From: a virus
DNA length: 36,483 bases
Strand: one strand, 5' to 3'
Virus record (IMG/VR): IMGVR_UViG_3300042475_000600
Coordinates: 1-36,483 of that record
Notes under the pieces: generated by a model
What the model was told of the DNA's origin: nothing
Database searches by the model: none
The model's input: the letters and a program-made list of their open reading frames with translations, nothing else
Shown here: one piece after another, positions 23,046-34,127 of the stretch
How positions within the stretch are numbered: position 1 is the stretch's first letter
How the letters are laid out: each line of letters opens with the position of its first letter
Program-made: the position numbers and the translations under genes

Positions 23046-23206
23046 TTACTGTCATGGCGGTGTTATTAACTTTCTTTATCGTAATGCCTATTCTGGCTTT
23101 CATGTACTACGATATGTACTATGCTCATCAAGCTGCCATCATCGAGATTAGGAAGATGAAAGAACTCCGGCGAGAGATACTGATAGAGAGGATGTATCGT
23201 GATTGA
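22994..23206 (+). CDS. Small membrane protein
   Basis: This 70-residue protein has a polar start (ADNKKRDDENIP), one or two membrane helices (WTLLITVMAVLLTFFIVMPILAF) and a charged C-terminal helix. I chose GTG 22994 because an upstream ATG at 22901 would add only out-of-frame translation of the previous gene's coding region. It overlaps the previous gene by 52 bases and the lysin gene by 8. It is possibly a second holin or an antiholin; this is inference from place and topology. Confidence 0.55.
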   Translation: MADNKKRDDENIPWTLLITVMAVLLTFFIVMPILAFMYYDMYYAHQAAIIEIRKMKELRREILIERMYRD

Positions 23207-23837
23207 CCGCAATGCTTTCAGGAAATTTATTCCTCACTCTAAGTACTCGGATCAATGGCATGACGCTTTATTCAGCCAGCAGACCGAACTAGGTGGTAAG
23301 TCGCTCCTAGAAGAATACGAAATAACGACTCCAAACCGTATAGCGGCTTTCCTAGCCCAATGTCATCATGAATCAGGTGGGTTCGTATGGCTAACGGAAA
23401 ACCTGAACTACTCTGCTTCAGGACTCCTTAAAGTTTTCCCTAAGTATTTCTCTACAGATTCACAGGCTAAGGCTTACGCTAAACAGCCGGATAAGATCGC
23501 TAACCATGTTTATGCTAACCGCATGGGCAACGGTGACGAGGCTAGCGGAGATGGGGCTAGATACAAGGGCAGAGGACTGATCCAGCTAACTGGCAAGGAT
23601 AACTATTTTTGGTTCGCTGCTAGCCTAGAGATGACTCCAGAACAAGCCTCAGAGTACACACAGACGTTTGAAGGAGCCGCCCAATCTGCTTGCTGGTTCT
23701 GGGAGACTAACAAGCTCAATCGATTCGCTGATGCCACAGACTTACGAGGCATGACTAAGGTCATTAACGGTGGTTACAAGGGTATGGAAGATAGAGAGGC
23801 TCAGTATGCGCGTGCTTTGGCTGTTGTTCATTCTTAG
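23199..23837 (+). CDS. Endolysin, glycoside hydrolase family 19
   Basis: This 212-residue protein is a GH19 chitinase-like lysozyme that cuts peptidoglycan. Visible signs are AFLAQCHHESGGF with catalytic Glu 58, LKVFPKYF, YKGRGLIQLTGKDNY (122-136, the family's substrate-binding stretch) and the helix DREAQYARAL near the end. There is no signal peptide, so export depends on the holin. The start is GTG with a strong upstream GAGAGGA. Confidence 0.92.
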   Translation: MIDRNAFRKFIPHSKYSDQWHDALFSQQTELGGKSLLEEYEITTPNRIAAFLAQCHHESGGFVWLTENLNYSASGLLKVFPKYFSTDSQAKAYAKQPDKIANHVYANRMGNGDEASGDGARYKGRGLIQLTGKDNYFWFAASLEMTPEQASEYTQTFEGAAQSACWFWETNKLNRFADATDLRGMTKVINGGYKGMEDREAQYARALAVVHS

Positions 23838-24407: not shown

Positions 24408-24583
24408 TTGCGATACGAATGGTTGGAACTGTCGTTCTTAGTCTTCTACTTGTGTTTAACATTCACGCTGGCGAGACAAAGAAGGTCTGTCACGCTGAGA
24501 AAAGACAGGGTAAAGAGGTACAGGTCTGTCGTGAGGTCAAGATTCACAAGAAACTTGATGGCACAAAAGTACCGCCGAAATGA
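24404..24583 (+). CDS. Small secreted protein in the lysis cassette
   Basis: This 59-residue frame has a signal peptide (MVGTVVLSLLLVFNIHAGE) and a basic mature part with two Cys (KKVCHAEK and VCREVKIHKK), probably one disulfide. ATGA overlaps at both ends place it in the operon. It is probably periplasmic. Its function is not known; it is distinct from the spanins, which follow. Confidence 0.6.
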   Translation: MIAIRMVGTVVLSLLLVFNIHAGETKKVCHAEKRQGKEVQVCREVKIHKKLDGTKVPPK

Positions 24584-25041
24584 ACCCTTACGTCATCATT
24601 GGCGTTGTAGCAGCCATAGGCGTTGCAGGAGCCGGAGGTCTGTATCAAGGACACCAGCTAGGCAAGGCTGAGGTTCAACAGGCTTGGGATAAAGAGAAAG
24701 CCGAGCAATATGCCCAGTACGCTAAGGCTCAGGAAGAAGCTAGGGCTAAGGAGCAGGAATTACAGGCTAACGCTGACCAGTTAAGGAAAGAGAAAGATGC
24801 GGAAATCAGGAATATTAACGCTCGGGCTAATGCTCTCTCTAACAGCCTGCAGCAGCGTCAAACCCGCCCCACCGAAACAAGTTCCTTGCCCAGTTCCTCC
24901 GGCACTAGACCAACATCCTGTAGCGGAAAAGAGCTTTACCGAGAGGATGGAGAGTTTCTTGTCAGGGTCGCTAGAGAAGCCGACGAACTCAGGTCAGCCC
25001 TCAAGCAGTGTTACACCCAATACGAAGCCCTAAGAAAGTGA
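24580..25041 (+). CDS. Rz: Rz-like i-spanin
   Basis: This 153-residue protein has an N-terminal inner-membrane helix (YVIIGVVAAIGVAGAGGLY). A long Ala/Glu/Lys/Gln coiled coil follows at about residues 25-90, then a Pro/Ser-rich stretch and a C-terminal helix with two Cys. That is the i-spanin plan. It carries the Rz1-like gene fully nested in another frame, the classic Rz/Rz1 layout. The pair fuses inner and outer membranes at lysis. Confidence 0.85.
   Translation: MNPYVIIGVVAAIGVAGAGGLYQGHQLGKAEVQQAWDKEKAEQYAQYAKAQEEARAKEQELQANADQLRKEKDAEIRNINARANALSNSLQQRQTRPTETSSLPSSSGTRPTSCSGKELYREDGEFLVRVAREADELRSALKQCYTQYEALRK
24797..25033 (+). CDS. Rz1: Rz1-like o-spanin nested in Rz
   Basis: This 78-residue protein has a signal peptide and lipobox (LGLMLSLTACSS) that would anchor it in the outer membrane at Cys 19. 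The mature part is Pro-rich (KPAPPKQVPCPVPP), as in Rz1 proteins. It lies entirely inside the Rz gene in a different frame, so both proteins constrain the same DNA. Confidence 0.85.
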   Translation: MRKSGILTLGLMLSLTACSSVKPAPPKQVPCPVPPALDQHPVAEKSFTERMESFLSGSLEKPTNSGQPSSSVTPNTKP

Positions 25042-25611: not shown

Positions 25612-25909
25612 CTTTAACGAATACTCCTTCTTTGTTCAGAAAGCCCTTGCGATCCTTGATCTGCTCGTATGCTGACTGAAAACAGTGTTTTAGATCGACA
25701 TCTTCAATAGCAGCCACCATAGTAAGACATACAAGAACGTCTCCAAGTCCATCGATAACTGCGTCACGGTCTCGTTTGGTAATCGCATCCGCTAATTCCC
25801 CCATCTCAGAAAAAGCCTTCAATAACTGCGTTTTAGCGTCTGAGTTCTGGATGATTCCTCTAGCCTCACCCCAACGGACAACTAATAGTTCGGTTGCTTC
25901 ATAGCTCAT
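25601..25909 (-). CDS. mazG: MazG-like nucleotide pyrophosphohydrolase
   Basis: This 102-residue protein has the all-alpha NTP pyrophosphohydrolase signature: EMGELADAI at 35-43 (ExxE-type metal ligands) and DGLGDVLVCL at 53-62. The length is right for a single-domain phage MazG. Such enzymes hydrolyse (d)NTPs, or ppGpp in some proposals. It overlaps the repressor's stop by 4 bases. Confidence 0.8.
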   Translation of the reverse strand: MSYEATELLVVRWGEARGIIQNSDAKTQLLKAFSEMGELADAITKRDRDAVIDGLGDVLVCLTMVAAIEDVDLKHCFQSAYEQIKDRKGFLNKEGVFVKDDK

Positions 25910-26097
25910 AGGAAACTTTCAATTTCTTCAATAGGCATGGCAAAGGTCTTGTGAATGGCAATCATCATGCTAGCCGATACGCCATATCGCTCGTTACGAA
26001 TCTTGCTTATCGTAGGTGTTGATACGCCTAGCGTTAGGGCTAATTGGCGGTCATTCTTGATGTCGTAGGTCTTAAGTAAATAGTCCAGCAGTTCCAT
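25906..26097 (-). CDS. Cro/CI-type helix-turn-helix regulator
   Basis: This 63-residue protein is almost wholly one HTH domain. The recognition segment is RQLALTLGVSTPTISKIRNE (residues 17-36), followed by a short C-terminal helix pair. There is no peptidase or effector domain, so it is Cro-like. A good Shine-Dalgarno (AGGAG) precedes the ATG. A promoter candidate with a palindrome in its spacer lies just upstream, suggesting self-regulation. Confidence 0.85.
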   Translation of the reverse strand: MELLDYLLKTYDIKNDRQLALTLGVSTPTISKIRNERYGVSASMMIAIHKTFAMPIEEIESFL

Positions 26098-26302
26098 GTT
26101 TTCTCCTGAGTTAATGCCCGTCTTTCCGGGCTGTCAACATACTCACACAGAGGGGAGAAACCTACCTGATAGGAGACTGTGCGTATGCTGCGTAGGTTAT
26201 GTGCGCCACCTATCGCTAGGCTTAAGGGTGGAGTACTCGCTTCACCAGTTCTATCCTTGACGATTTGTTAATCGAAAAGCTGGCATCCGCTTTCCTCCAT
26301 AG
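26098..26302 (-). other. Structured non-coding segment
   Basis: I find no usable reading frame in these 205 bases on either strand, yet they hold several inverted repeats. These are CCTA-5-TAGG (26161-26173), CCTA-4-TAGG (26209-26220, a GCGA loop when read on the minus strand) and AACCTAC/GTAGGTT (26159-26165 with 26192-26198). CCACC/GGTGG (26206-26210 with 26227-26231) and GGTG/CACC (26227-26230 with 26243-26246) also occur. CGATT-4-AATCG lies at about 26261-26274. It could be a small RNA, a long regulated leader or a multi-operator region. It lies between the Cys-rich peptide gene and the repressor. Confidence 0.5.
26109..26137 (-). promoter_or_regulatory. Candidate promoter and operator of the repressor gene
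   Basis: Read on the minus strand, a perfect TTGACA (26137-26132) is followed after exactly 17 bases by TTAACT (26114-26109), a weak -10 box. The spacer contains the inverted repeat GCCCG-6-CGGGC (26131-26116), which could bind the repressor encoded directly downstream. Transcripts would start almost at the Shine-Dalgarno. Confidence 0.45.
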
Positions 26303-26449
26303 TCAAAAGCAACTTGTATTGCAGTTGCCACCATAACAGCAGGTTGTACAGGTCACATACCGACCATCGTAGTAATAGCTATGTGTCGAGCAGCTAGCCC
26401 AAACGAGAGGGGCTGTGAGAGCTAACCAGAGTGCGAATAAGTATTTCAT
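26303..26449 (-). CDS. Secreted Cys-rich micro-peptide
   Basis: This 48-residue frame has a Shine-Dalgarno GAGGGG five to six bases before the ATG. The first 18 residues (MKYLFALWLALTAPLVWA) form a clear Sec signal peptide with an AxA-like cut site. The 30-residue mature part has six Cys in the pattern C-x13-C-x2-CC-x4-C-x3-C and is rich in Ser, Thr, Tyr and Gly. It is probably oxidised in the periplasm. Its function is unknown. Confidence 0.7.
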   Translation of the reverse strand: MKYLFALWLALTAPLVWASCSTHSYYYDGRYVTCTTCCYGGNCNTSCF

Positions 26450-26458
26450 AGTTTCCCC

Positions 26459-26698
26459 TCAGAATGGTGCGTCACTAAGATCATCATCTTGAAACTCTAC
26501 TTTCTTTGCTGGCTTCTTGGTTTCCTTCTCCTTAACCGCTAGAGAGAAAAACTTACCGTTCTTGCCTTCTTTAAGCCACCCAGAGAGCCAGTAATCCTTG
26601 CCATCGATATTGATCGTGCCGGAGTAGTCTGGGTGCTTGTCAGACTGCTTGTTAGTGTTTCGCCCTAACATACCGCGATTAGTATTATCGTATTCCAT
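26459..26698 (-). CDS. SSB-like small protein
   Basis: This 79-residue protein has a body resembling the small phage family with YSGTINIDGKDYWLSGWLKE, a single beta sheet. It ends in an acidic tail with a terminal hydrophobic pair (DDDLSDAPF), like the C-terminal tip of single-strand DNA-binding proteins that recruits partners. It lies directly downstream of the ERF recombinase, which would use single-stranded DNA. The SSB role is inference. Confidence 0.55.
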   Translation of the reverse strand: MEYDNTNRGMLGRNTNKQSDKHPDYSGTINIDGKDYWLSGWLKEGKNGKFFSLAVKEKETKKPAKKVEFQDDDLSDAPF

Positions 26699-26700
26699 GA

Positions 26701-27354
26701 TTATCCTTTAGTGAATTTCTTAATTGCTGATCGTTGCTTGCTATCCAACTGGCTCCAGAGTGCAGTCTTCCAATCCGCATCTAGCTCCAGAGAATTGATG
26801 TACTCCACAGCCTCAGACACTTGGTCTTTATGAATCAGCATAATGACATCGGCTGCATAACTGCGAATCTCGTCTTGAGATTCTGAATCTAGCTCGTCAA
26901 ATACCGACTTAGTGATAGGCTTTGCAGACTTAGGTTCTTCTGATCCGGTAGTCGCATCTAGTGCGTCATGCTCACAGATAGCCAAAGCCATTACCAGCAG
27001 ATACCGAGTAATGTAGGTAATCGATGCGCCTAGATTCTGGACTTCATGGCAACCCTTAAGTTGAGCAGAAGCCATAGGGCAGGTGAACTTAGCGCAGCCA
27101 CCATCAACCGTATCAATGACACGCATTGTCGCTAGATCGCTGGTGAACTCTAACGTATGGCAAAGACCTAGTTCAGCGAATATCGAGTTGACGGTAGGCA
27201 GGAAGTCGGTCAGTTCAAAGTAGCGATACCCTGCAAACTTGTTATGTCCTGACTTCTTGAGTTCTACGTTCTGGAGCTTGACTCTGGCTTTCTGTAGCTT
27301 CTCATACACAAGCCATTGCTGCTGTTCTTCTTGCTCCTGTTGACGGTTATCCAT
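26701..27354 (-). CDS. erf: ERF-family single-strand annealing recombinase
   Basis: This 217-residue protein contains KSGHNKFAGYRYFELTDFLP (residues 34-53) and NLGASITYITRYLLVMAL (107-124). These are the two best-known signatures of ERF proteins such as P22 Erf. The N-terminus is Gln/Glu-rich. The C-terminal 80 residues are acidic and helical. ERF rings anneal single strands during recombination or genome circularisation. Confidence 0.85.
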   Translation of the reverse strand: MDNRQQEQEEQQQWLVYEKLQKARVKLQNVELKKSGHNKFAGYRYFELTDFLPTVNSIFAELGLCHTLEFTSDLATMRVIDTVDGGCAKFTCPMASAQLKGCHEVQNLGASITYITRYLLVMALAICEHDALDATTGSEEPKSAKPITKSVFDELDSESQDEIRSYAADVIMLIHKDQVSEAVEYINSLELDADWKTALWSQLDSKQRSAIKKFTKG

Positions 27355-29794: not shown

Positions 29795-30196
29795 ATGGAA
29801 ATTTCCCAAACTTTTACGTTCGAAGCTGCGCATACGTTAGCTCGGTTAGTTCCATTAGTTGAATATGAGCCAAGCATGAGGATTCACGGTCATTCGTATG
29901 TTGCTACAGTAGCCGTTAGGGGCGAGATGGGGGCTGATGGGATTTTGCAATTCTTCCGGCTTCCCAAAAACAAGCGGCAAAAAGTTGACTTGTTTTATCT
30001 ACGGAAAGAAATCCAAGAGGTAAAAGCAAAATTAGATCATCGTTTCCTAAATGAAATAGAGGATTTGCCACACCAGACGCTAGAGGCATTGTGTGTATTT
30101 ATATTCACCCACATAAATAAATATTTCCCTGTGGCTTGGGTAAAGGTTGAGCGACCGTTAAGCGGAGATGCTTGTCTTTACGATGGTGTCAAATGA
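29795..30196 (+). CDS. queD: QueD-like 6-carboxytetrahydropterin synthase homologue
   Basis: This 133-residue protein has the PTPS/QueD fold markers: FEAAH with zinc ligand His 13, IHGHS with His 31 and His 33, LDHRFLN (Asp 81, His 82) and a late VERPLSG with Glu 119. QueD makes the precursor of 7-deazaguanines such as preQ0. The residue four before the HGH motif, normally the catalytic Cys, is Ser 27 here (EPSMRIHGH). Activity may therefore be altered, or this may be a paralogous subfamily. It is coupled by ATGA to the DpdA-like gene. Confidence 0.82.
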   Translation: MEISQTFTFEAAHTLARLVPLVEYEPSMRIHGHSYVATVAVRGEMGADGILQFFRLPKNKRQKVDLFYLRKEIQEVKAKLDHRFLNEIEDLPHQTLEALCVFIFTHINKYFPVAWVKVERPLSGDACLYDGVK

Positions 30197-30933
30197 TTCA
30201 CTATCACGGGCTTCCGATTACCCCGGCAACAGCAGCTCTAAGGGCTATAAGTGGCGGTCATGCGTTTGTTTCCTTTAGACATTCAGACCAACTAACGATA
30301 GCGTTGGAGGCTTCTCAGTCCTTTGCTGTGGATAACGGGGCTTTTAGCGCGTGGAAATCTGGAAACCCTGTAGAAGATTGGAACCCATTTTATGAATGGG
30401 TGGATAGATTGAGGCGTTATCCAGCGTTTGATTTTGCTGTAATACCCGACGTTATTGACGGTGATGAAAAGGCAAATGATGATCTATTAGAGCAATTTCC
30501 GTTTGCTGTTTACGTTGGCGCACCAGTATGGCATTTGCATGAGAGTCTAGAAAGATTGGACAGGTTAGCAACAAAGTATCCAAGGATTTGCTTAGGATCA
30601 TCTGGTGATTTCGCAAACATAGGAATAACGGCTTGGTGGAGTCGCATGGCTGAGGCAATGGATGTTATTTGCGACGATGAAGGATTGCCAAAGACCAAGA
30701 TTCACGGTTTGAGGATGCTAAACCCGGATGTGTTTACGAGATTTCCATTTGCTTCTGCTGACAGTACAAACATAGGTCAAAACGTAGGAATTGATAGCGC
30801 ATGGCGAGGAACTTATACGCCACCAACAAAGGAGGCAAGAGCTGCTCTTATGCGAGAGCGTATCGAATCACACCAAAGCGCACAGGTATGGGATAGAAAA
30901 ATTGCGCCTATTCAGGTAAATTTATTTGATTAA
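30193..30933 (+). CDS. dpdA: DpdA-like DNA-guanine transglycosylase
   Basis: This 246-residue protein resembles the phage TGT-like family linked to 7-deazaguanine in DNA. Visible blocks are FAVDNGAFSAW (residues 45-55), AVIPDVIDGD (82-91), VWHLHESLERL (112-122), CLGSSGDF (133-140), KIHGLRMLNP (169-178) and ASADSTN (187-193). These suit a TIM-barrel transglycosylase with acidic catalytic residues. It would exchange guanine in phage DNA for a deazaguanine and so block host restriction. Assignment to a DpdA subtype is from memory. The ATG at 30193 overlaps the queD stop. Confidence 0.72.
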   Translation: MIHYHGLPITPATAALRAISGGHAFVSFRHSDQLTIALEASQSFAVDNGAFSAWKSGNPVEDWNPFYEWVDRLRRYPAFDFAVIPDVIDGDEKANDDLLEQFPFAVYVGAPVWHLHESLERLDRLATKYPRICLGSSGDFANIGITAWWSRMAEAMDVICDDEGLPKTKIHGLRMLNPDVFTRFPFASADSTNIGQNVGIDSAWRGTYTPPTKEARAALMRERIESHQSAQVWDRKIAPIQVNLFD

Positions 30934-33632: not shown

Positions 33633-33948
33633 CCCACACGATGCCATTGATTTTATTTATCAAAATTCTATGGCTTACGCCAAGGCTAAAGCCGAGGTTA
33701 CTTACCTAGAGGAGTTTCGGAAAAGCAAGAAGGCGATCTTATTCTCACAGGCAATAGGGAATACGGTCGCTGACAGGGAGAATCAGGCTTATGCGCATCC
33801 AGAGTACCAAGCATTACTAAAAGGGCTTCAGGCGGCTGTAGAGGCTGCTGAAGAACTTAGGTGGAAGCTGATAGCGGCACAGGCTAGGATCGATGTCTGG
33901 CGGTCTCAGGAGGCTTCTAATCGAACAATGGATAGGGTGACACAATGA
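33622..33948 (+). CDS. Helical hypothetical protein
   Basis: This 108-residue Ala/Glu/Lys-rich helical protein (KAKAEVTYLEEFRKSKKAI) has a coiled-coil-like second half. The ATG at 33622 with GAGG upstream is chosen instead of an earlier start at 33586 that lies inside the previous gene. The function is unknown; similar small proteins occur in phage replication regions. Confidence 0.65.
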   Translation: MQVNPHDAIDFIYQNSMAYAKAKAEVTYLEEFRKSKKAILFSQAIGNTVADRENQAYAHPEYQALLKGLQAAVEAAEELRWKLIAAQARIDVWRSQEASNRTMDRVTQ

Positions 33949-34127
33949 ACGAGATCGATGATAGCAATTTAGCACAATGTGAGTATTGCGGTTGGGTAGT
34001 AGATTGGGATGAGGTTCCGAGGGCTAGGGATATATCTGGCGAGATCGTTACCTGCTGCGAGGAATGTAACGAGGGTGAATCGTTTGTAAATTATCCGTCT
34101 AAGAGGTTTGCTATTGCGGAAAAATGA
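33945..34127 (+). CDS. Zinc-ribbon protein
   Basis: This 60-residue acidic protein has CEYC (residues 12-15) and CCEEC (37-41), giving a zinc ribbon. An ATGA overlap links it to the previous gene. It is one of several tiny zinc proteins in this genome, with no specific function visible. Confidence 0.65.
   Translation: MNEIDDSNLAQCEYCGWVVDWDEVPRARDISGEIVTCCEECNEGESFVNYPSKRFAIAEK

Follow-up and report, generated by a model that had tools for sequence, protein, structure and literature searches.

Location and sequence of the peptide gene

The window, by which we mean the whole 36,483-nucleotide stretch of DNA analysed here, belongs to an uncultured, podovirus-like aquatic phage with portal (phrog_1216), head, scaffold, endolysin and Rz-like spanin genes; the spanin implies a Gram-negative host. 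No integrase was found in the 36,483 bases. On the minus strand lies a gene for a small six-Cys protein of 48 residues, predicted to be secreted (26303-26449, stop codon included), whose translated product is MKYLFALWLALTAPLVWA followed by SCSTHSYYYDGRYVTCTTCCYGGNCNTSCF. Immediately upstream on the same strand is a gene for an SSB-like protein (26459-26698; phrog_7364, E 2.5e-18), itself preceded by a gene for an Erf-type ssDNA annealing protein (26701-27354, minus strand; phrog_155, E 4.3e-24; PF04404, E 9.5e-14). The ribosome-binding site of the peptide gene, GAGGGG (26456-26461, minus strand), overlaps the stop codon of the SSB-like gene. The next gene of the operon encodes a CI/Cro-type HTH regulator (25906-26097, minus strand; PF07022, E 8.7e-07), and the endolysin (23199-23837) and Rz-like spanin (24580-25041) genes are on the opposite strand. 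Elsewhere in the window, QueD-like and queuine tRNA-ribosyltransferase-like genes lie side by side (29795-30933, plus strand), which suggests 7-deazaguanine modification of DNA or tRNA by this phage.

An earlier note on this DNA had described a phage-encoded gene of 48 residues with a ribosome site, a signal peptide and a 30-residue mature part with the spacing C-x13-C-x2-CC-x4-C-x3-C, in an early operon. Each of these elements stood: the open reading frame is present with GAGGGG before its start codon, the Cys spacing is exactly as given, and the signal peptide and early-operon location recur across the family described below. The roles that the note gave as examples (exclusion, envelope stress or inhibition of a host factor) are candidates. 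What the note had missed is that the family is large, that the gene is optional and that a structured RNA follows it.

Export and location in the envelope

Residues 1-18 (26396-26449, minus strand) have the features of a signal peptide, with a lysine at position 2, a hydrophobic core and a predicted type-I cleavage site after V-W-A; the same arrangement, A/V-x-A before mature S/A-C, is found across the family. Between the cleavage site and the first Cys the spacing differs among members (A-C, AS-C, AQ-C and AQQ-C), which argues against a lipobox. For the window protein a bacterial lipoprotein was rejected, since its sequence here is V-W-A-S-C, with W at -3 and an A-x-A site before the S. One exception in the family, L265, has its own lipobox (LLSGC) ahead of the same terminal domain, and three further members (L225, L227 and L252) carry this domain on a long hydrophobic N-terminus. 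Cleaved or tethered, every localisation read from these sequences would place the domain in the envelope. The periplasmic action proposed earlier is backed by these membrane-anchored variants and by the paired gain of two extra Cys described below, and it is very probable that the peptide acts in the periplasm or envelope, whatever its role there. The lipoprotein-anchored version (L265:2484-2762, plus strand) adjoins a tyrosine integrase gene, an arrangement that hints at a role in prophage exclusion or conversion.

A large family with a constrained cysteine scaffold

A tblastn scan of IMG/VR gave 522 relatives of the peptide at E<=1e-3, the E-values being relative to the candidate stretches. 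The best 80 of these all have an intact reading frame and the Cys pattern; neither frameshifted homologues nor loss of the pattern, which the earlier note had named as evidence against the gene, was seen. The family was then enlarged by DNA-pattern scans, some of which placed no constraint on what follows the second or last Cys. The core C[TQS]TCCxGxxCxTxC hardly varies among phages that are otherwise very diverse, and T18 and T27 (mature numbering) are almost always Thr, even in the scan that left both positions free. Among copies carrying the core, 367 of 369 end exactly one residue past the last Cys. This final residue is often aromatic, and since it can also be N, I, S, T, M, L or V a terminal aromatic is not universal. 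The window gene has all the features by which the family is defined, namely an export signal or anchor, the pattern C-x12-15-C[TQS]xCC-x-G-x2-C-x3-C and a single residue after the last Cys.

The dN/dS of the mature part was 0.049 (1,938 close pairs), a value that is low partly because the search patterns fix the core and Cys codons and because dS is saturated; changes in the N-terminal half, which the patterns leave unconstrained, are mostly silent too, and the mature domain appears to be under purifying selection. Judged by sequence, the six-Cys gene is confirmed as real, far beyond chance, and belongs to a large family with relatives in hundreds of environmental phages.

The gene has been overlooked in annotation, as had been anticipated. 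Pfam, PHROGs and NCBIfam hold no family for it, giving only weak sub-threshold matches with none over the library cut-off, and the copies in GenBank are unannotated. A profile search of the PDB by sequence gave no significant match. Among GenBank phages members were found only in two duplicate Manatee Spring records (MW202462 and MW202544); the BLAST low-complexity filter probably masks the Cys region (one match at E 0.5 was a true member), so absence by tblastn in GenBank is only moderate evidence. In MW202462.1 the unannotated member is at 33818-33958 (minus strand), where the record instead has a hypothetical CDS on the other strand. No match was found in 84,980 cellular genomes, searched with peptide patterns and a DNA pattern, nor in plasmids. 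The nearest portal protein among phages of cultured hosts, at 53%, is that of Methylophilales phage Venkman, in which no such peptide was found.

The BFVD contains one family member, UniProt A0A6J5M8Q5 from an uncultured Caudovirales phage, which is 73% identical to the window peptide with a TM-score of 0.98 across all 30 mature residues. Its name, 'Lipoprotein', is automatic and is unsupported for the window protein, which has no lipobox at the Cys.

Predicted fold and disulfide pairing

The mature domain of 30 amino acids (26306-26395, minus strand) was modelled with AlphaFold2 from 110 mature sequences and is predicted to form a three-stranded antiparallel sheet (strands 2-9, 12-21 and 24-29) with a pLDDT of 91, to be read with a pTM of 0.40 and the fact that small Cys-rich models can be over-confident. 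An 8-Cys relative gave the same strands (pLDDT 90). The two-residue turns, at 10-11 and 22-23, contain the conserved G11 and G22, and residues facing each other across them satisfy i+j=21 and i+j=45. Since the output gave strands without S-S distances, the disulfides were derived from the strand register; the predicted pairs are C2-C19, C16-C29 and C20-C25, that is Cys 1-3, 2-6 and 4-5. Cross-strand disulfides are favoured at non-hydrogen-bonded positions, and in this register all six Cys occupy facing positions of that kind. Only 35 of 134,596 Cys placements have such facing, and only 1 of 184 choices of turn fits.

A branch of the family has two further Cys, at 8 and 13 (8+13=21), which would also face each other at non-hydrogen-bonded positions. 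Among 205 distinct sequences, 146 have neither extra Cys and 58 have both, with one odd member; a single extra Cys was absent from all 205. This all-or-none pattern supports an oxidised scaffold, and it may also be explained by a single ancestral gain that was then inherited. In L052 (2856-3002, plus strand) and also in L380-L393, a second ORF lies just upstream of the peptide gene. It has all 8 Cys at identical spacing, but its signal peptide is poor and almost every other residue differs; it occurs in 14 identical copies and is a diverged tandem paralogue of the peptide gene.

Searches with the predicted fold gave a best Foldseek match at E 0.17 and a best VIA match at Z 3.5, the latter a common three-strand meander; the hits to polymerases and a Ralstonia lectin are probably background for such a meander. 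A Thr-rich ice-binding surface was considered and rejected, as several of the residues concerned are not always Thr (Y at mature 4, Q at 17).

An optional cassette in an early operon

The early-operon location holds family-wide. A same-strand upstream gene was present in 142 of 159 cases (162 distinct loci), separated by 10 nt at the median; most frequent were SSB-like (58+9) and Cro-like (18) genes. Recombination or replication genes (Erf, SSB-like, RecT, YqaJ, RusA or DnaT-like) neighbour the peptide gene at 86 of 91 well-flanked loci, where the cluster names rest partly on inspection of the cluster sequences.

The peptide is carried at 24 of the 64 distinct loci that have relatives of the window's SSB gene. 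Furthermore, where the SSB proteins are 97-100% identical, the peptide behind them may be of the 6-Cys or the 8-Cys form or may be missing, and in the peptide-less loci the RNA element stands 18 nt from the end of the SSB gene. Since both the form and the presence of the peptide vary behind a near-identical SSB gene, it is an exchangeable and optional cassette. Such presence and absence, with exchange of 6-Cys and 8-Cys forms, is the sequence pattern expected of an accessory interaction gene.

A structured RNA element after the gene

Starting 3 nt past the stop codon of the peptide gene is a structured RNA element (26226-26299, minus strand), identified by covariation, a strict-pattern scan and folding. 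Its architecture is GGGGGAAAGCGGAUGCUG, a variable hairpin and then CAGACGCAGCGAGUACCCC. In the closing stem two positions covary without a broken pair (GC36/AU5/UA1 and GC38/AU3/GU1), and there is covariation in the inner stem too. Folded as a single sequence, the element has an energy within the ordinary range (z -1.5), and the case for the RNA therefore rests on covariation. Rfam 15 gave no match.

At least 120 strict-pattern copies are present in IMG/VR, mostly without the peptide, and the peptide is absent from 105 of 106 newly fetched stretches that carry the element; the RNA is far commoner than the peptide. It is about 65-140 nt long and lies between early genes of many uncultured phages, mostly 0-8 nt past one early gene and often 6-30 nt ahead of the next. 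Examples include the window, L033, L169, L335, L396 and others, and MW202879 (L502:1768-1846). Found mostly between other early genes and without the peptide, the element is independent of it. It may be a cis-acting RNA of the early operon, possibly a new class of cis-regulatory RNA; one idea is protein-independent antitermination of the HK022 put type.

Behind related SSB genes in L568, L573, L518 and their relatives, a shorter RNA keeps only GGGGGAAAG...GAGTACCCC. These shorter variants suggest that the core of the element is the closing stem with its GAAA/GAGUA internal loop. In two copies (L356:1345-1434 and L088:1056-1145) the variable hairpin includes a stretch like a tRNA T-arm (GGTTCAACTCC and GGTTCGATTCC), which may be chance.

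Discussion

Comparison of the sequences establishes a real gene with an export signal, carried in an early operon as an optional element and encoding a constrained Cys scaffold; the fold and the disulfide pairing are predicted. From these we propose the following. Translation would be coupled behind the SSB-like gene, so that the peptide is made early in infection. It would be exported and its signal peptide cleaved, and in the oxidising periplasm the 30 residues would form an antiparallel sheet of three strands, held by three cross-strand disulfides, or four in the 8-Cys branch. Its most likely role there would be to bind an envelope component or the entry machinery of an incoming phage, and such binding would shut out superinfecting phages or give the infected cell protection of another kind. 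This reading as a whole, of an exported disulfide sheet encoded by an optional early cassette and binding the envelope for exclusion or cell protection, is put forward tentatively; a role in superinfection exclusion, taken alone and argued from analogy, is possible, though somewhat less likely than not.

The CTTCC-x-G segment is more invariant than would be expected of an exclusion protein in an arms race. That might rather indicate a conserved host target, which is the main rival to exclusion. The peptide would then inhibit a conserved envelope factor of the host (a protease, the Bam or Dsb machinery or a peptidoglycan enzyme are candidates) and so aid the infecting phage itself rather than exclude others. 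A core that is nearly invariant in very diverse phages suits such a target, as does the early operon, but the gene is optional among close relatives, and we regard host-factor inhibition as rather unlikely.

A role in timing lysis from the periplasm, like that of T4 antiholin RI or as a Spackle-like by-product, would suit a small, exported, phage-coded peptide, and mutants of Spackle do alter lysis timing as well (PMC7677548). However, the gene sits in an early recombination operon with the endolysin and Rz-like spanin genes on the other strand, and a lysis role is improbable. Slightly worse placed is a thiol peptide active in metal binding or CxxC-type redox exchange, with no structural disulfides. 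Six Cys within 30 residues, among them CxxC and CC motifs, might be read in this way, but export would be into an oxidising periplasm, every Cys fits a cross-strand disulfide site and the two extra Cys were gained as a pair. Action outside the infected cell, as a signal or as a toxin against competitors, is highly improbable, for a disulfide-stapled, exported peptide might in principle be small enough to leave the cell but has no route past the outer membrane, and the tethered variants indicate the envelope.

More broadly, the family might be an undescribed and very widespread class of periplasmic phage mini-proteins with a new minimal fold, targeting a conserved envelope function of aquatic bacteria. 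The fold would be a sheet of three strands and 30 residues that carries disulfides on each of its faces; this broader reading is doubtful. Exclusion and host takeover are decided by small exported proteins of phages, yet annotation mostly overlooks them. Hundreds of aquatic phages carry members of the present family. Its strict scaffold, a candidate for one of the smallest phage-coded disulfide-stapled protein scaffolds, is small enough for chemical synthesis, and otherwise near-identical loci exist with and without the gene; with these features the function is directly testable.

Inhibitor cystine knots (knottins) have the Cys order C-C-CC-C-C with disulfides 1-4, 2-5 and 3-6. The window peptide shares this order, but its first loop is of 13 residues and its predicted pairing is 1-3, 2-6 and 4-5.

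T4 Spackle (gp61.3) is an early, periplasmic, disulfide-containing superinfection exclusion protein of 75 amino acids, a helical bundle with one disulfide (PMC7677548). The window peptide, from its sequence and predictions, would likewise be early, exported, small and disulfide-containing, whereas its 30 residues are predicted to form a sheet with three disulfides. Membership of the Spackle family, a helical bundle that binds the gp5 lysozyme, was rejected, since the window peptide is predicted to be all-beta; no sequence relation was found between the two. The small envelope protein Llp of phage T5 has a disulfide between Cys11 and Cys58 and acts from the periplasmic side to block the receptor FhuA (PMC9586334). 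Unlike the window peptide it is a lipoprotein, and it is larger and of another fold, and here too no sequence relation was found. The peptide may be analogous to T4 Spackle or T5 Llp in role, and not in fold.
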